Shown here: piece after piece, positions 1,575 to 44,342 of the stretch | How the letters are laid out: every line of letters starts with the position of its first letter | Position numbering within the stretch: position 1 is the stretch's first letter | NCBI GenBank assembly: GCA_029204225.1 | Contig: CM055092.1 | Coordinates: forward strand, 99,325,460-99,389,459 | Direction: 5' to 3' | DNA: 64,000 nucleotides | DNA from: Diphasiastrum complanatum | Lineage: Eukaryota; Streptophyta; Lycopodiopsida; Lycopodiales; Lycopodiaceae | Made by a program: the position numbers and the translations under genes | The notes under the pieces: generated by a model | What the model saw: only the letters and a program-made list of their open reading frames with translations | Told to the model about the DNA's origin: nothing | Databases searched by the model: none

Positions 1575-1730
1575 TGTAAAAATGTTTTATTCTTGGTGTG
1601 TGTGGTTGGCGGGCTAGGGATTGAACCTAGGACTTCCCCCATTCCAGTGGGGTGCTCTACCACTAACCTACCCATCCATTTGTGTTCCAAGAGTGTTGTG
1701 CAAGGGCTATAGCCTTGACACTTTCTAACA
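1575..1730 (-). repeat. LTR of the miniature element
   Basis: 156 bp, bounded by TG..CA on both strands, with the polypurine tract directly adjoining its 5' end. Nearly half of it is a tRNA-like sequence with pol III type internal promoter boxes, which is unusual for an LTR. Confidence 0.65.
1607..1678 (-). tRNA. tRNA-like sequence inside the LTR (degenerate acceptor)
   Basis: The minus strand folds as a class I tRNA. There is a D arm with GTGGTAGAGC, an anticodon stem CCCC/GGGG with a 7-nt loop CTGGAAT (U33 kept, anticodon read as GGA), a 5-nt variable region, and a T arm CTAGG-TTCAATC-CCTAG with a perfect stem. An A box (1660-1670, one mismatch to consensus) and a perfect B box (GGTTCAATCCC, 1617-1627) are present. 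The acceptor stem has two mismatches and no serine-type long variable arm fits the GGA anticodon. A working tRNA is therefore doubtful, but a pol III promoter is plausible. Confidence 0.55.
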
Positions 1731-1742
1731 CTCCCCCTCTAG
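1731..1742 (-). promoter_or_regulatory. Polypurine tract of the miniature element
   Basis: On the minus strand this reads CTAGAGGGGGAG immediately before TGTTAG of the LTR, the normal position for plus-strand DNA priming. Confidence 0.65.
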
Positions 1743-1791
1743 GCATAGCCCTTTATAGCTACTGCCCACCTTAATCACACCCACAACCATG

Positions 1792-1803
1792 GCTCTGATA
1801 CCA
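1792..1803 (-). promoter_or_regulatory. Primer-binding site, initiator tRNA-Met type
   Basis: Minus strand TGGTATCAGAGC is exactly the canonical plant copia site and abuts the LTR end ..TTTCACA. Confidence 0.8.
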
Positions 1804-1939
1804 TGTGAAAGTTTACACTTGGTGTGCATGGTCGGGCTTACAAGTTGTAATATGGATTGCATTTGATTTCTTTAAGTTTTACAACTTCCATATATCACAC
1901 GTGTCTCATTTGTGGACCGAATATTGATGCTCGACACTC

Positions 1940-4174: not shown

Positions 4175-4384
<210 letters not shown>

Positions 4385-19165: not shown

Positions 19166-19459
19166 CGAGAGGGAATATGAGAACTTTCAGAGGGAATATT
19201 CTAGATTCCCCAATTCGGTGCGGCGTCAACAGATTTTCAATCTGTCTGATGCTGCCCTGGCCTTTTTGATGCCTCCGGGACTGTGCTTTCGTTCCCCACT
19301 GATGATTTTGAGCTCCAACCCTACAAAATACACCAAAGAAGAATTTCTTCCAGTCGTTTTTGTCTCTCCAAGCTTTCACCTCCCGTGAAGGACTTTCTCA
19401 CTTCGTTGCGGAGCTTGTGACAAGCTGTATCCACTGATCAGGCACTCAGGACTATTGCT
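19166..19459 (-). other. 5' leader of a minus-strand copia element
   Basis: The non-coding or unassigned leader directly after the primer-binding site. Its sequence recurs in every unit of the 36-43 kb array. It is cut off at 19,165 with no gag attached. Confidence 0.6.
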
Positions 19460-19471
19460 GCTCTGATACCA
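19460..19471 (-). promoter_or_regulatory. Primer-binding site, initiator tRNA-Met type
   Basis: Minus strand TGGTATCAGAGC, a perfect plant copia site, next to the LTR end ..AATTCTTGACA. The same site precedes the LTRs at 37,838, 39,916 and 41,994. Confidence 0.85.
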
Positions 19472-19733
19472 TGTCAAGAATTAGATATGCAACATCAAGC
19501 ATTTACCATAAGCAATCACCAAAAGAAGGCGGAAGAAGAACACGCACTGTCACTCTATCACACTACCACATACAGAATGTAAAATGTACAAATAAACCCT
19601 GAACCTTGATAGAGAGAGAAAACCTACGAGTAGACTGATAGACTAGCCTACGGCTATTGACAGCTGGTCACAGCTGTCAACATTAATGTGCGTCGTAAAC
19701 AGTAACAATGAAGTTTATCATTGATTTCTAACA
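19472..19733 (-). repeat. 262-bp copia LTR
   Basis: On the minus strand it starts TGTTAGAAATCAATG and ends ..AATTCTTGACA, directly followed by the primer site. Exactly the same length as the three LTRs in the tandem array. It lies next to plus-strand copia sequence, so the minus-strand element probably inserted into an older copia copy. Confidence 0.85.
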
Positions 19734-20590
19734 AGAATGTTATGCAAATTGTGTCTTCGGTTGAGTTGTGGCACAAGAGATTGGGACATCCAATTTAGAT
19801 GCATATATTAATTGGTCAATTATAATCTAACCGGTCTACCTCTTTATTTTTTTACAATATACAACACATGTTCACTTTTCTAGGAAAAGAGTGTTTTACA
19901 ACACATGTTTACTACAAAACAATATACAACACATTTGATACATTGATTATTAATGACAATAGTAGGCATACATGGATATACTTACTTAAGAGCATGGAAC
20001 AAGTGAAGGAGACATTCTTTAAGTTTATATCTATGATGGAGAACCAACTCAACATCAAGATCAAAATATGGACAAGAGATAAAATAGAAGTTTTCAAGTG
20101 TTCTAAAGCTCCCACTTTAAGTGGATGAGACAATGAATTACACTTAACTTCATTTCAAATAGGCCACCACTTGCTCCACTTGATGGTAAGTTATCTTATG
20201 CAATTCTTTAAGGTAAATACCTCAAAGTGTTTTCATGCAAAAAAGCTGGTTTGCCTTAAAACAAAAGAACACTTGTATGGCCGCAAGCAATCCCCAAGAT
20301 ATTTGAATGCTCGATTCGAAATTTCTAGCTTGGGCTTTAGTTCATTGTGAGTGAGCATAATGCATTTTCTTAACATCACATTTATGATTGATGAATTTAA
20401 CATCAAATTTTTATACTATATGTTGATGACACTGTTCAAGAAAGATAGTCATGGAGAAATTGTAAAGATCAAGCTAGCACTTAGCCAAGTGTTTGAAATA
20501 AAGCTTGGTTTAAGAGATAGTAAGCGAGGTATAAGAGATAGAGAAGCAACCTCTGAAGACACTACTCTCTATAAAAGCTCATGAGCAGGC
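19734..20590 (+). pseudogene. Internally deleted Ty1/copia pol remnant
   Basis: Pieces of copia Pol follow each other with gaps. Pre-integrase VELWHKRLGHP (about 19,760) comes first, then the integrase start DTLIINDNSRHTWIYLLKS (about 19,940) to NIKIKIWTRDKIEVFK, then reverse transcriptase EHLYGRKQSPRYLNARFEIS (about 20,265). The palm-like FLYYMLMTLFKKDS (where YVDD is expected) and QVFEIKLGLRDSKRG follow near 20,415-20,530. The integrase core end, most of the polymerase and RNase H are missing. Stops occur throughout. The same remnant is repeated in each array unit at 36-43 kb. Confidence 0.75.
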
Positions 20591-21478
20591 TCATATAGTT
20601 AACAACTAATGGATTCATGAATCATTTTCTGGAATTTACTTTTGGCCTTTAATTTGTTAGACAAAAGTTGCCTCAATTAGTCACATCTATGTTAATTTAA
20701 AGGGCATTCCTTAGTGTAATACACCAAGATTTCTAGTATATGTAGCAAGCAATTAGTAATGCAACTCCTCGTAATATAGCTAATAATACTTGCAATGCTC
20801 CTTTCGATCCCAAGTTATTTGCATCTACACGATTCATAGAAAGATACTAAAATGATCTCAAAAGCTCCAAGAACAAAGGATTCCAGATATAATTCTACAA
20901 GAGAGAAGAAATTCAGAAAGGTATCCTTAAGTATATTTCAGGGAATTTGTCATATTAAATATCAAGTAGCTTTATGTGCGCATTGTAGATCAAGTAGCTT
21001 CATGTGGGATCGTCATGAAAATTTCACCTTCCATGCAGCCCTTAATTCCAAAAAAAAAAAGAAATTGGACAGCATGTTAATGCTCAAAAAGGTAATAAAA
21101 TAGAATGTTATGAGCTCTGGAGACAGAAAATTAACTTCATAGTTATATTCCAGAACTCCCTGGTGTGACAATTCATCATCTAGATAAATATATGCCTTGT
21201 ACAAGCACAGAACTTATCCAGGTGAATGGAAAGAATCCCGCTCATTTTCTATGATTGTATAAGTTTTGTACTGTACTAATCAATAGTATATCTAACTAAT
21301 ATATCCTGCGAATTAGGAGCGTCTTAAAAAACGAGATATGCCGATATAAACTAATCTATAACTGGGTATTTATGTGGTCCGGCCACAGCCGCTAGAGATA
21401 TTTTCAGGACAGCTATATAAGAGATCCAACAGCCACCATCTTGGCTGGAAAAAGTCTGTTAACAGACTAGACTGGCTG
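20591..21478. other. Unassigned region downstream of ARD copy 2
   Basis: Shared with 43,130-44,342 except for a ~324-bp segment missing here at about 20,886. No gene identified. It probably contains the 3' flank of the ARD gene on the minus strand. Confidence 0.4.
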
Positions 21479-35996: not shown

Positions 35997-36112
35997 AGAA
36001 TATGAGAACTTTCAGAGGGAATATTCTACATTCCTCACTTCGGCGTGGCGTCAACAAATTTTCAATCTGTTTGATGCTGCCCTGGCCTTTTTGATGCCTC
36101 CGGGACTGTGTA
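35997..36112 (-). other. Copia leader fragment at array start
   Basis: Matches 19,175-19,290 (leader of the minus-strand copia). It is fused directly to the array body at 36,113, with the rest of the leader, primer site and LTR deleted. Confidence 0.65.
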
Positions 36113-37837
36113 ATCTAACCGGTCTACCTCTTGATTTTTTTACAATATACAACACATGTTCACTTTTCTAGTAAAAGAGTGTTTTACAACACATGTTTAC
36201 TACAAAACAATATACAACACATTTGATACATTGATTATTAATGACAATAGTAGGCATACATGAATATACTTACTTAAGAGAATGGAACAAGTGAAGGAGA
36301 CATTCTTTAGGTTTAAATCTATGATGGAGAACCAACTCAACATCAAGGTCAAAATATGGACAAGAGATAAAATAGAAGTTTTCAAGTGTTCTAAAGCTCC
36401 CACTTTAGGTGGATGAGACAATGAATTACACTTAACTTCATTTCAAATAGGCCACCACTTGCTCCACTTGATGGTAAGTTATCTTATGCAATTCTTTAAG
36501 GTAAATACCTCAAAGTGTTTTCATGCAAAAAAGCTTGTTTTCCTTAAAACAAAAGAACACTTGTATGGGCTCAAGCAATCCCCAAGATATTTGAATGTTC
36601 GATTCGAAATTTCTAGCTTGGGCTTTAGTTCATTGTGAGTGAGCATAATGCATTTTCTTAACATCACATTTATGATTGATGAATTTAACATCAAATTTTT
36701 ATACTATATGTTGATGACACTGTTCAAGAAAGATAGTCATGGAGAAATTGTAAAGATCAAGCTAGCACTTAGCCAAGTGTTTGAAATAAAGCTTGGTTTA
36801 AGAGATAGTTAGCGAGGTATAAGAGATAGAGAAGCAACCTCTGAAGACACTACTCTCTATAAAAGCTAATGAGCATGCTCATATAGTTAACAACTAATGG
36901 ATTCATGAATCCTTTTTTAGAATCTACTTTTGGCCTTTAATTTGTTAGACAAAAGTTGCCTCAATTAGTCACATCTATGTTAATTTAAAGGGCATTCCTT
37001 AGTGTAATACACCAAGATTTCTAGTATATGTAGCGAGCAATTAGTAATGCAACTCCTCGTAATATAGCTAATAATACTTGCAATGCTCCTTTCGATCCCC
37101 AATTATTTGCATCTACACGATTCATAGAAAGATACTAAAATGATCTCAAAAGCTCCAAGAACAAAGGATTCCAGGGAAGCTATGATCATCATCCACGTGA
37201 CTATAGCCATAGTATGCACTTTCACATAAGAATTCAAACCTTCAGCACATAAGAATGTATGGGAACTAAACCACGACGAATTTGAAGGATATGTCAAGCC
37301 TCAAATTTTGCTTCAGGGTAGAATAATAGTTCAGGTTGTTTGATCTACAATGCCCTCAGAAGTTAGTATTTCTTGTTGCAGTTATCCAAAGAAGGAATAA
37401 TAACTTCTGAGATTTGGGCCCATAGAAAGACATCTAGATCTGAAGCTCACTTCCGATAGACAGGAATATGTATTATGTTGAAGAACAAAGGATTCCAGAT
37501 ATAATTCTACAAGAGAGAAGATATTCAGAAAGGTATCCTTAAGTATATTTCAGGGAATTTGTCATTCTACATTCCTCACTTCGGCGTGGCGTCAACAGAT
37601 TTTCAATCTGTTTGATGCTGCCCTGGCCTTTTTGATGCCTCCGGGACTGTGCTTTCGTTCCCCACTGATAATTTTGAGCTCCAACCGTAAAAAATACACC
37701 AAAGAAGAATTTCTTCCAGTAGTTTTTGTCTCTCGAAGCATTCGCCTCCTGTGAAGGACTTTCTCACTTCGTTGCGGAGCTTGTGACAAGCTGTATCCAC
37801 TGATCAGGCACGCATGACTATTGCTGCTCTGATACCA

Positions 37838-38099
37838 TGTCAAGAATTAGATATGCAACATCAAGCATTCACCATAAGCAATCACCAAAAGAAGGCGGAA
37901 GAAGAACACGCACTGTCACTCTATCACACTACCGCATACAAAAAGGAAAATGTACAAATAAACCCTGAACCTTGATAGAGAGAGAAAACCTACGAGTAGA
38001 CTGATAGACTAGCCTACGGCTATTGACAGCTGGTCACAGTTGTCAACATTAATGTGCATCGTAAACAGTAACAATGAAGTTTATCATTGATTTCTAACA
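37838..38099 (-). repeat. Copia LTR in array unit 1
   Basis: 262 bp, TGTTAGAAATC..CTTGACA on the minus strand, with a perfect TGGTATCAGAGC primer site at 37,826-37,837. Confidence 0.85.
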
Positions 38100-39915
38100 A
38101 GAATGTTATGCAAATTGTGTCTTCGGTTGAGTTGTGGCACAAGAGATTGGGACATCGAATTTAGATGCATACATTATTTGGTCAATTATAATCTAACCGG
38201 TCTACCTCTTGATTTTTTTACAATATACAACACATGTTCACTTTTCTAGTAAAAGAGTGTTTTACAACACATGTTTACTACAAAACAATATACAACACAT
38301 TTGATACATTGATTATTAATGACAATAGTAGGCATACATGAATATACTTACTTAAGAGAATGGAACAAGTGAAGGAGACATTCTTTAGGTTTAAATCTAT
38401 GATGGAGAACCAACTCAACATCAAGATCAAAATATGGACAAGAGATAAAATAGAAGTTTTCAAGTGTTCTAAAGCTCCCACTTTAGGTGGATGAGACAAT
38501 GAATTACACTTAACTTCATTTCAAATAGGCCACCACTTGCTCCACTTGATGGTAAGTTATCTTATGCAATTCTTTAAGGTAAATACCTCAAAGTGTTTTC
38601 ATGCAAAAAAGCTTGTTTTCCTTAAAACAAAAGAACACTTGTATGGGCTCAAGCAATCCCCAAGATATTTGAATGTTCGATTCGAAATTTCTAGCTTGGG
38701 CTTTAGTTCATTGTGAGTGAGCATAATGCATTTTCTTAACATCACATTTATGATTGATGAATTTAACATCAAATTTTTATACTATATGTTGATGACACTG
38801 TTCAAGAAAGATAGTCATGGAGAAATTGTAAAGATCAAGCTAGCACTTTGCCAAGTGTTTGAAATAAAGCTTGGTTTAAGAGATAGTTAGCGAGGTATAA
38901 GAGATAGAGAAGCAACCTCTGAAGACACTACTCTCTATAAAAGCTAATGAGCATGCTCATATAGTTAACAACTAATGGATTCATGAATCCTTTTTTAGAA
39001 TCTACTTTTGGCCTTTAATTTGTTAGACAAAAGTTGCCTCAATTAGTCACATCTATGTTAATTTAAAGGGCATTCCTTAGTGTAATACACCAAGATTTCT
39101 AGTATATGTAGCGAGCAATTAGTAATGCAACTCCTCGTAATATAGCTAATAATACTTGCAATGCTCCTTTCGATCCCCAATTATTTGCATCTACACGATT
39201 CATAGAAAGATACTAAAATGATCTCAAAAGCTCCAAGAACAAAGGATTCCAGGGAAGCTATGATCATCATCCACGTGACTATAGCCATAGTATGCACTTT
39301 CACATAAGAATTCAAACCTTCAGCACATAAGAATGTATGGGAACTAAACCACGACGAATTTGAAGGATATGTCAAGCCTCAAATTTTGCTTCAGGGTAGA
39401 ATAATAGTTCAGGTTGTTTGATCTACAATGCCCTCAGAAGTTAGTATTTCTTGTTGCAGTTATCCAAAGAAGGAATAATAACTTCTGAGATTTGGGCCCA
39501 TAGAAAGACATCTAGATCTGAAGCTCACTTCCGATAGACAGGAATATGTATTATGTTGAAGAACAAAGGATTCCAGATATAATTCTACAAGAGAGAAGAT
39601 ATTCAGAAAGGTATCCTTAAGTATATTTCAGGGAATTTGTCATTCTACATTCCTCACTTCGGCGTGGCGTCAACAGATTTTCAATCTGTTTGATGCTGCC
39701 CTGGCCTTTTTGATGCCTCCGGGACTGTGCTTTCGTTCCCCACTGATAATTTTGAGCTCCAACCGTAAAAAATACACCAAAGAAGAATTTCTTCCAGTAG
39801 TTTTTGTCTCTCGAAGCATTCGCCTCCTGTGAAGGACTTTCTCACTTCGTTGCGGAGCTTGTGACAAGCTGTATCCACTGATCAGGCACGCATGACTATT
39901 GCTGCTCTGATACCA

Positions 39916-40177
39916 TGTCAAGAATTAGATATGCAACATCAAGCATTCACCATAAGCAATCACCAAAAGAAGGCGGAAGAAGAACACGCACTGTCACTCT
40001 ATCACACTACCGCATACAAAAAGGAAAATGTACAAATAAACCCTGAACCTTGATAGAGAGAGAAAACCTACGAGTAGACTGATAGACTAGCCTACGGCTA
40101 TTGACAGCTGGTCACAGTTGTCAACATTAATGTGCATCGTAAACAGTAACAATGAAGTTTATCATTGATTTCTAACA
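39916..40177 (-). repeat. Copia LTR in array unit 2
   Basis: Exact periodic copy, 2,078 bp after the previous one, with its primer site at 39,904-39,915. Confidence 0.85.
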
Positions 40178-41993
40178 AGAATGTTATGCAAATTGTGTCT
40201 TCGGTTGAGTTGTGGCACAAGAGATTGGGACATCGAATTTAGATGCATACATTATTTGGTCAATTATAATCTAACCGGTCTACCTCTTGATTTTTTTACA
40301 ATATACAACACATGTTCACTTTTCTAGTAAAAGAGTGTTTTACAACACATGTTTACTACAAAACAATATACAACACATTTGATACATTGATTATTAATGA
40401 CAATAGTAGGCATACATGAATATACTTACTTAAGAGAATGGAACAAGTGAAGGAGACATTCTTTAGGTTTAAATCTATGATGGAGAACCAACTCAACATC
40501 AAGATCAAAATATGGACAAGAGATAAAATAGAAGTTTTCAAGTGTTCTAAAGCTCCCACTTTAGGTGGATGAGACAATGAATTACACTTAACTTCATTTC
40601 AAATAGGCCACCACTTGCTCCACTTGATGGTAAGTTATCTTATGCAATTCTTTAAGGTAAATACCTCAAAGTGTTTTCATGCAAAAAAGCTTGTTTTCCT
40701 TAAAACAAAAGAACACTTGTATGGGCTCAAGCAATCCCCAAGATATTTGAATGTTCGATTCGAAATTTCTAGCTTGGGCTTTAGTTCATTGTGAGTGAGC
40801 ATAATGCATTTTCTTAACATCACATTTATGATTGATGAATTTAACATCAAATTTTTATACTATATGTTGATGACACTGTTCAAGAAAGATAGTCATGGAG
40901 AAATTGTAAAGATCAAGCTAGCACTTAGCCAAGTGTTTGAAATAAAGCTTGGTTTAAGAGATAGTTAGCGAGGTATAAGAGATAGAGAAGCAACCTCTGA
41001 AGACACTACTCTCTATAAAAGCTAATGAGCATGCTCATATAGTTAACAACTAATGGATTCATGAATCCTTTTTTAGAATCTACTTTTGGCCTTTAATTTG
41101 TTAGACAAAAGTTGCCTCAATTAGTCACATCTATGTTAATTTAAAGGGCATTCCTTAGTGTAATACACCAAGATTTCTAGTATATGTAGCGAGCAATTAG
41201 TAATGCAACTCCTCGTAATATAGCTAATAATACTTGCAATGCTCCTTTCGATCCCCAATTATTTGCATCTACACGATTCATAGAAAGATACTAAAATGAT
41301 CTCAAAAGCTCCAAGAACAAAGGATTCCAGGGAAGCTATGATCATCATCCACGTGACTATAGCCATAGTATGCACTTTCACATAAGAATTCAAACCTTCA
41401 GCACATAAGAATGTATGGGAACTAAACCACGACGAATTTGAAGGATATGTCAAGCCTCAAATTTTGCTTCAGGGTAGAATAATAGTTCAGGTTGTTTGAT
41501 CTACAATGCCCTCAGAAGTTAGTATTTCTTGTTGCAGTTATCCAAAGAAGGAATAATAACTTCTGAGATTTGGGCCCATAGAAAGACATCTAGATCTGAA
41601 GCTCACTTCCGATAGACAGGAATATGTATTATGTTGAAGAACAAAGGATTCCAGATATAATTCTACAAGAGAGAAGATATTCAGAAAGGTATCCTTAAGT
41701 ATATTTCAGGGAATTTGTCATTCTACATTCCTCACTTCGGCGTGGCGTCAACAGATTTTCAATCTGTTTGATGCTGCCCTGGCCTTTTTGATGCCTCCGG
41801 GACTGTGCTTTCGTTCCCCACTGATAATTTTGAGCTCCAACCGTAAAAAATACACCAAAGAAGAATTTCTTCCAGTAGTTTTTGTCTCTCGAAGCATTCG
41901 CCTCCTGTGAAGGACTTTCTCACTTCGTTGCGGAGCTTGTGACAAGCTGTATCCACTGATCAGGCACGCATGACTATTGCTGCTCTGATACCA

Positions 41994-42255
41994 TGTCAAG
42001 AATTAGATATGCAACATCAAGCATTCACCATAAGCAATCACCAAAAGAAGGCGGAAGAAGAACACGCACTGTCACTCTATCACACTACCGCATACAAAAA
42101 GGAAAATGTACAAATAAACCCTGAACCTTGATAGAGAGAGAAAACCTACGAGTAGACTGATAGACTAGCCTACGGCTATTGACAGCTGGTCACAGTTGTC
42201 AACATTAATGTGCATCGTAAACAGTAACAATGAAGTTTATCATTGATTTCTAACA
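41994..42255 (-). repeat. Copia LTR in array unit 3
   Basis: Exact periodic copy, 2,078 bp after the previous one, with its primer site at 41,982-41,993. The sequence to its right is the left end of composite copy 3. Confidence 0.85.
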
Positions 42256-43130
42256 AGAATGTTATGCAAATTGTGTCTTCGGTTGAGTTGTGGCACAAGA
42301 GATTGGGACATCGAATTTAGATGCATACATTATTTGGTCAATTATAATCTAACCGGTCTACCTCTTGATTTTTTTACAATATACAACACATGTTCACTTT
42401 TCTAGTAAAAGAGTGTTTTACAACACATGTTTACTACAAAACAATATACAACACATTTGATACATTGATTATTAATGACAATAGTAGGCATACATGAATA
42501 TACTTACTTAAGAGAATGGAACAAGTGAAGGAGACATTCTTTAGGTTTAAATCTATGATGGAGAACCAACTCAACATCAAGATCAAAATATGGACAAGAG
42601 ATAAAATAGAAGTTTTCAAGTGTTCTAAAGCTCCCACTTTAGGTGGATGAGACAATGAATTACACTTAACTTCATTTCAAATAGGCCACCACTTGCTCCA
42701 CTTGATGGTAAGTTATCTTATGCAATTCTTTAAGGTAAATACCTCAAAGTGTTTTCATGCAAAAAAGCTTGTTTTCCTTAAAACAAAAGAACACTTGTAT
42801 GGGCTCAAGCAATCCCCAAGATATTTGAATGTTCGATTCGAAATTTCTAGCTTGGGCTTTAGTTCATTGTGAGTGAGCATAATGCATTTTCTTAACATCA
42901 CATTTATGATTGATGAATTTAACATCAAATTTTTATACTATATGTTGATGACACTGTTCAAGAAAGATAGTCATGGAGAAATTGTAAAGATCAAGCTAGC
43001 ACTTAGCCAAGTGTTTGAAATAAAGCTTGGTTTAAGAGATAGTTAGCGAGGTATAAGAGATAGAGAAGCAACCTCTGAAGACACTACTCTCTATAAAAGC
43101 TAATGAGCATGCTCATATAGTTAACAACTA
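42256..43130 (+). pseudogene. Ty1/copia pol remnant of the last array unit
   Basis: Same pieces as at 19,734-20,590: VELWHKRLGH, DTLIINDNSRHT (with WIYLL changed to a stop-free NILT-type reading), KEHLYGLKQSPRYLNVRFEI and FLYYMLMTLFKKDS. It has the same internal deletions and stops, including a TAG at 43,045. Confidence 0.7.
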
Positions 43131-44342
43131 ATGGATTCATGAATCCTTTTTTAGAATCTACTTTTGGCCTTTAATTTGTTAGACAAAAGTTGCCTCAATT
43201 AGTCACATCTATGTTAATTTAAAGGGCATTCCTTAGTGTAATACACCAAGATTTCTAGTATATGTAGCGAGCAATTAGTAATGCAACTCCTCGTAATATA
43301 GCTAATAATACTTGCAATGCTTAATAATACTTGGAATGCTCCTTTCGATCCCCAATTATTTGCATCTACACGATTCATAGAAAGATACTAAAATGATCTC
43401 AAAAGCTCCAAGAACAAAGGATTCCAGGTAAGCTATGATCATCATCCACGTGACTATAGCCATAGTATGCACTTTCACATAAGAATTCAAACCTTCAGCA
43501 CATAAGAATGTATGGGAACTAAACCACGACGAGTTTGAAGGATATGCCAAGCCTCAAATTTTGCTTCAGGGTAGAATAATAGTTCAGGTTGTTTGATCTA
43601 CAATGCCCTCAGAAGTTAGTATTTCTTGTTGCAGTTATCCAAAGAAGGAATAATAACTTCTGAGATTTGGGCACATAGAAAGACATCTAGATCTGAAGCT
43701 CACTTCCGATAGACAGGAATATGTATTATGTTGAAGAACAAAGGATTCCAGATATAATTCTACAAGAGAGAAGATATTCAGAAAGGTATCCTTAAGTATA
43801 TTTCAGGGAATTTGTCATATTAAATATCAAGTAGCTTCATGTGGGCATTGTAGATCAGGTAGCTTCATGTGGGATCGTCATGAAAATTTCACCTTCCATG
43901 CAGCCCTTAATTCCAAAAAAAAAAGAAATTGGACAGCATGTTAATGCTCAAAAAGGTAATAAAATAGAACGTTATGAGCTCTGGAGACAGAAAATTAACT
44001 TCATAGTTATATTCCAGAACTCCCTGGTGTGACAATTCATCATCTAGATAAATATATGCCTTGTACAAGCACAGAACTTATCCAGGTGAATGGAAAGAAT
44101 CCCGCTCATTTTCTATGATTGTATAAGTTTTGTACTGTACTACTCAATAGTATATCTAACTAATATATCCTGCGAATTAGGAGCGTCTTAAAAAACGAGA
44201 TATGCCGATATAAACTAATCTATAACTGGGTATTTATGTGGTCCGGCCACAGCCGCTAGAGATATTTTCAGGACAGCTATATAAGAGATCCAACAGCCAC
44301 CATCTTGGCTGGAAAAAGTCTGTTAACAGACTAGACTGGCTG
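43131..44342. other. Unassigned region downstream of ARD copy 3
   Basis: Includes a 17-bp direct repeat (43,411-43,427 and 43,735-43,751). The segment between the repeats is absent from the sister region at 20,870. No gene identified. Confidence 0.4.

Follow-up and report, generated by a model that had tools for sequence, protein, structure and literature searches.

TRIMs that carry tRNA-like sequence in their LTRs were named Helenus by Kojima in 2024 (PMC10886601). Helenus elements have been reported from fungi and animals; Selaginella moellendorffii is the one plant for which that study gives them, and its Helenus-1_SMo combines an LTR of 120 bp and an internal region of 85 bp with 5-bp target duplications (PMC10886601). 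In that study, the insertion of a SINE into an ancestral LTR was suggested as the origin of Helenus, and its transcription by RNA polymerase III (pol III) was left unproven (PMC10886601). Tandem forms with multiple LTRs have been described for the plant TRIM Cassandra and for many other TRIMs (PMC4717578). Moreover, this survey of plant TRIMs gives 5S rRNA sequence for Cassandra only, and the word tRNA does not occur in its main text (PMC4717578). Accessory signals known from plant tRNA genes include TATA and CAA motifs on the upstream side and T runs on the downstream side, and TATA precedes 22-32% of the genes (PMC11700998).

In the present study, a small LTR element was analysed in a 64-kb stretch of the genome of the clubmoss Diphasiastrum complanatum, the whole of which is referred to as the window. 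The family to which the element belongs is Helenus by structural definition, the comparison with Helenus-1_SMo being one of descriptions only. With Helenus and Helenus-1_SMo it shares TRIM size, tRNA-like sequence in both LTRs, a primer binding site (PBS), a polypurine tract and 5-bp target duplications, as well as a tRNA part that is unlikely to be a working tRNA (PMC10886601). The proportions differ, with an LTR of 153 bp and an internal part of 73 bp in the clubmoss against the shorter LTR and longer internal region of Helenus-1_SMo (PMC10886601). Cassandra likewise has a small pol III gene-like sequence in its LTR, is non-coding and occurs in tandem multi-LTR forms (PMC4717578), but its LTR is 5S rRNA-like whereas that of the clubmoss family is tRNA-like. 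Membership in Cassandra was rejected, as neither the window nor 19 scanned loci of the family gave a 5S rRNA match that reached the Rfam gathering score. SMART and ordinary plant TRIMs also share the small size, the two LTRs, the PBS and the polypurine tract (PMC10886601) but differ in LTR content, tRNA-like sequence going unmentioned in the main text of the plant TRIM survey (PMC4717578). The tRNA-bearing kind of TRIM was already known (Helenus, 2024), and the clubmoss family is an additional plant family of it. In the titles and abstract beginnings of the literature on Helenus LTR retrotransposons from 2024 on and on tRNA-like TRIMs, no printed record of the clubmoss family was found; those on tRNA-like TRIMs also yielded no further plant case.

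Structure of the copy in the window

The element in the window lies on the minus strand and consists of a 5' LTR remnant, an internal region and a full 3' LTR (Table 1). The preliminary description of this DNA had reported an internal part of 73 bp, a polypurine tract and an LTR of 156 bp, all of which were confirmed at the positions given in the table. It had further described a near-complete tRNA fold with A and B boxes and proposed a run of a tRNA covariance model. The fold was recovered by both Rfam and ARAGORN and the B box is intact, but the A box, TAGGTTAGTGG, is degenerate. In the Rfam scan, the match of the window LTR to RF00005 scored 38.2 bits (gathering score 29), and no other Rfam match in the 64 kb reached its gathering score. 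ARAGORN placed its call at 1677-1603, with an anticodon that could not be assigned. Over about 14 nt, the PBS probably matches the 3'-terminal sequence of the initiator tRNA-Met of plants. The 3' LTR exceeds that of L050, a copy with two full LTRs, by 3 bp. The window copy itself carries tRNA-derived sequence as a nearly complete unit in one LTR only, the 5' LTR being truncated, and it therefore falls short of the Helenus definition that the family satisfies.

Table 1. Features of the element copy in the window (positions in the window; all on the minus strand)
Feature	Position	Strand	Remarks
Whole element copy	1838-1575	minus	35-bp 5' LTR remnant + 73-bp internal part + 156-bp 3' LTR
5' LTR remnant, about the last 35 bp	1804..1838	minus	upstream part with nearly all of the tRNA-like stretch missing
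Primer binding site (PBS), TGGTATCAGAGCCATGG	1787..1803	minus	read from the sequence
Internal region, 73 bp, too short for protein coding	1731..1803	minus	internal part of L050 also 73 bp
Polypurine tract, GAGGGGGAG	1731..1739	minus	adjoins the 3' LTR
3' LTR, 156 bp, TGTTAG...TTTACA	1575..1730	minus	153 bp in L050
TATA, possible pol III upstream element	1708..1711	minus	34 bp 5' of the tRNA-like part
CAA, possible pol III start motif	1680..1682	minus	5 bp 5' of the tRNA-like part
tRNA-like sequence in the 3' LTR	1607..1677	minus	Rfam RF00005, 38.2 bits; ARAGORN
A box, degenerate, TAGGTTAGTGG	1670-1660	minus	window copy
B box, intact, GGTTCAATCCC	1627-1617	minus	window copy
T run close to the LTR end, possible pol III terminator	1578..1582	minus	read from the sequence

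Other repeats were observed in the window. The stretch 36111-43818 is a near-perfect tandem array with a unit of about 2,078 bp and about 99.5% identity over the longest self-match; it is probably an LTR element multiplied in tandem, and the stretch 19198-20886 is related to it. Three of the array units contain a PBS-like site (37826, 39904 and 41982). These sites and another at 19460 were considered as kin of the element and rejected, the adjoining LTR sequence being unlike it. A pure AT repeat of 96 units occupies 4184-4375.

Multiplication of the window copy within a larger repeat

The 1.74-Gb assembly was searched with the 271-bp feature as query; the best 40 of 581 first-look candidates were scored, and the 39 places besides the window were compared for the element and its flanks. 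Similarity extended kilobases into the flanks of the window copy at 38 of the 39 places. The exception was L028, where the match covered the element only and the flanks were not similar to those of the window. At 34 of the 39 places, a single alignment spanned the element plus some 100 bp of flank on either side, and at four others (L039, L040, L041 and L045) the match covered the 5' flank and broke off within the tRNA-like part. Moreover, the junction left by the LTR truncation of the window copy lay within the aligned stretch at 38 of the 39 places. These 38 places are one insertion, already without most of its 5' LTR, which was amplified as a passenger of a larger repeat. Because a single insertion was carried along in this way, they were not counted as independent copies, and the reading of the first search as about 40 independent copies of the element was rejected. 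Among the best 40 scored places (window included), 30 lie at 94.6-99.9 Mb of contig C1 (101.6 Mb), in its distal stretch; since they cluster there, the larger repeat, with the truncated element inside it, seems to have undergone local amplification on this contig.

A dispersed family with two full LTRs

L028, which has tRNA-like sequence at both ends, served as query for a second search, in which the best 40 of 826 first-look candidates were scored. The 39 loci analysed besides L028 are the best-scoring places, found with a query containing the tRNA-like part, and are spread across many contigs. The plan of the element is seen in L050, with an LTR of 153 bp, an internal part of 73 bp and a second LTR of 153 bp, 379 bp in all. 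At least two LTRs were present in 39 of 39 loci, and three in L083, L086 and L087. In this best-scoring sample, the tRNA-like part was aligned in each LTR of all 39 loci, one LTR of L070 and one of L075 lacking the first 7 nt of it. These two ends were considered as transcript-like 5' ends and rejected; a deletion of about 39 bp takes away most of the U3 together with the first tRNA-like bases. The Rfam cut-off for RF00005 was passed by 40 of 41 LTRs from 19 loci (L070-L088), with scores from 29.7 to 57.2 bits. As in TRIMs generally, two direct LTRs enclose a short non-coding internal part, the whole remains below 1000 bp, and a PBS and a polypurine tract stand at the ends of the internal part.

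Grouping by shared flanks reduced the 40 loci, L028 included, to 29 distinct insertions. In 29 loci, the divergence between the first two LTRs ranged from 0.7 to 8.5%. A matching 5-bp target duplication was found in 14 of the 29 insertions; in the control, in which 5' and 3' flanks of different insertions were paired, a 5-mer matched in 4 of 812 pairs. One of the 14, L077, sits within a CT repeat and says little. When it was left out, the longest exact flank match was 5 bp in 13 of 28 insertions and 0-2 bp in the other 15. The outer LTR end was not fully aligned in 7 of the 28 (L028, L052, L066, L070, L074, L083 and L086), and among the 21 insertions with two full ends the duplication was present in 13. 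At its true 5' end, L070 gave a flank match of only 4 bp. The length of the duplication lies within the 4-6 bp of TRIM target sites. The element is an LTR retrotransposon without coding sequence, about 379 bp long, with LTRs of 153 bp, an internal part of 73 bp and 5-bp target duplications.

Some copies are tandem LTR-internal-LTR-internal-LTR forms, and an extra internal part before or after an LTR was observed in L068, L083, L086, L087, L110 and L111. In addition, a short PBS-like piece stands directly before TGTTAG in L058 and L065 (TGATACCA) and after the 3' LTR in L060 (TGGTATCATGTGAAAG); the ends of these three copies give the impression of being fused to the PBS of a different LTR element.

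tRNA character and promoter-like signals of the LTR

Signals were counted in 60 LTR copies, TATA and CAA in the 58 that have the site. The A box TAGCTCAGTGG was exact in 44 of the 60 copies and the B box GGTTCAATCCC in 48. TATA at -34 of the first tRNA-like base was exact in 58 of 58 copies and CAA at -5 in 50 of 58, and TTTT occurred within the last 14 nt in 53 of 60. Ranked by exact conservation among the 143 11-mers of the LTR, the A and B boxes came 100th and 78th, without extra conservation, and these copies bear no sign of special constraint on the two boxes.

An anticodon was assignable in 1 of the 60 copies, and identity to host tRNA genes was at most 63% (18 of 63 scored tRNA genes of the same genome). 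With these two results a functional tRNA gene was rejected, and the sequence looks dead as a tRNA. Because anticodons are rare and identity to the host tRNAs is low, an old SINE-like or degenerate source would fit better than a recent tRNA capture. The assembly held 84,948 first-look tRNA candidates, a loose count of which 63 were scored, and one scored match, L109 (49.2 bits), is a copy of the LTR at 96% identity. Since L109 is an LTR copy, the tRNA annotation of this genome may be inflated by the element family, and some of the tRNA-like matches in the genome are probably LTRs.

Proposed mechanism of transcription and transposition

One decayed copy of a Helenus-type TRIM, together with the pol III mechanism proposed here, is an explanation of the window feature in which we have good confidence when the two are taken together, and it is the best one found. 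The loss of most of the 5' LTR of the window copy came first, and its multiplication as a passenger of the larger repeat followed. In intact copies, pol III would start near the tRNA-like +1 of the 5' LTR, with the TATA-like motif at -34, CAA at -5 and the A and B boxes as its signals, and would continue by read-through as far as the T run in the 3' LTR. Both ends of the resulting RNA would consist of the tRNA-like part as R region, the first 53 bp of the LTR being U3. At the PBS, a host tRNA would serve as the primer for reverse transcription, and the RNA would be copied and integrated by proteins supplied by an autonomous LTR element, which may be Copia, with Gypsy also possible.

Judged from sequence signals, transcription of the element by pol III is plausible. 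The stronger proposition, that the LTR is a complete plant-type pol III gene (TATA, CAA, A box, B box and TTTT) that makes the genomic RNA, with the tRNA-like part as R, is given about an even chance. The TTTT in the 5' LTR should stop pol III ahead of the PBS, and full-length RNA would need read-through for that reason. If this proposition holds, the output of pol III would be divided by the terminator of the 5' LTR: one product would be a short RNA of tRNA-like sequence, the other a read-through RNA competent for transposition.

Transcription of a Helenus-type TRIM by RNA polymerase II, as in other LTR elements, with the tRNA-like part a passenger without promoter function, is the alternative that survives best, and we hold it to be possible if somewhat doubtful. 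It agrees with A and B boxes that are no better conserved than the remaining LTR and with a TTTT that would shorten pol III transcripts in the 5' LTR. The upstream TATA and CAA, however, stand at positions possible for plant tRNA genes (PMC11700998), which speaks for the pol III reading.

An autonomous partner element was not found in the sequences searched. Because GGGGGAG stands before L074, a longer partner sharing this LTR was considered. No second LTR copy was found in the 5 kb upstream of L074 (L089), and two open frames about 4 kb from L074 in the same direction, Copia RNase H-like by eye, had no Pfam match at E 0.001.

The tRNA-like part as a regular component of the LTR

Both LTRs carry the tRNA-like part in 39 of 39 loci. 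The preliminary description had proposed a TRIM whose LTR regularly includes the tRNA-like sequence, much as that of Cassandra includes 5S rRNA, and this proposal is supported by the 39 loci and by the 40 of 41 LTRs that pass Rfam. The structural parallel stands, but as a new kind of element the proposal was preceded by Helenus (Kojima 2024). The preliminary description had also called for a genome-wide search for LTR pairs 73 bp apart with 5-bp duplications; the spacing of 73 bp is seen in L050, and the duplications in 14 of the 29 distinct insertions.

A sample free of tRNA bias was obtained by searching for exact matches to 35 bases that span the boundary between LTR and PBS. This junction occurred 74 times and its reversed control 0 times. 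Among the 74, 26 lay in loci of the earlier samples, and 8 of the other 48 were examined, all on small contigs. The 5' LTR retained at least part of the tRNA-like sequence in 7 of the 8 copies. In L110-L115 (L113 and L115 share flanks), the 5' LTR has both ends, with deletions within the tRNA-like part; in L116 it is cut inside that part, and in L117 its last 22 bp remain. The Rfam tRNA cut-off was passed by 1 of the 8 5' LTRs, and ARAGORN called none of the 8. With a single copy passing the cut-off, the tRNA-like part is damaged in older copies. The 3' LTRs examined for six of the 8 copies all contained tRNA-like sequence (for L112 judged from its second half). Furthermore, the 3' LTRs of L110, L111, L113 and L114 at the matching site lack the deletion of the 5' LTR; the deletions in older 5' LTRs therefore look like later, private events, and reverse-transcription errors are disfavoured as their source. 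The 5' LTR deletions of L110-L115 were observed to fall mostly within the tRNA-like part, though the cases are few.

The rival given in the preliminary description was that an ordinary TRIM copy had received a SINE or a piece of tRNA in one of its LTRs, in which case the tRNA-like part would be foreign to the family. The window copy, with the part in one LTR only, invites this reading. It was rejected for the present family and is now very improbable: both LTRs carry the part in all 39 loci, for which the search query itself included tRNA-like sequence, and the junction-chosen copies, free of that bias, retain some of it in all but one 5' LTR, of which the end alone is left. Since two-ended copies carry the tRNA-like part in both LTRs, its absence from the second LTR of the window is the truncation of that copy. 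Intact copies with LTRs lacking the tRNA part, named beforehand as evidence against the regular-component proposal, were sought as an LTR with that part cleanly missing, and one exact pattern search (exact arms, gap of 0-8 bases) gave 0 matches. The 39-locus and 8-copy samples and the pattern search revealed no complete LTR devoid of tRNA-like sequence; such LTRs may exist as a rare class, and a SINE or tRNA insertion is possible at the distant origin of the family. A tRNA-derived SINE mobilised by a LINE is the least credible reading of all. A tRNA-like head with A and B boxes speaks for it, as does the 5' repeat of L028, which starts at the tRNA-like +1, but the PBS, the polypurine tract, the TG...CA ends, the paired 153-bp repeats and the 5-bp duplications contradict it, and the L028 breakpoint, rejected also as a transcript-like end, is one such case among four 5'-truncated 5' LTRs (L028, the window copy, L116 and L117) and not beyond chance.

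Conclusions

In the paper that defined it, Helenus in plants rested on one spikemoss family (PMC10886601), and the clubmoss now provides another. If the proposed role of pol III is true, this would be the second plant case of a TRIM driven by a tRNA-type pol III promoter, alongside Helenus-1_SMo. The dispersed family, with its range of LTR divergence and its target duplications, offers a practical system for the study of pol III as the maker of the genomic RNA of an LTR retrotransposon.
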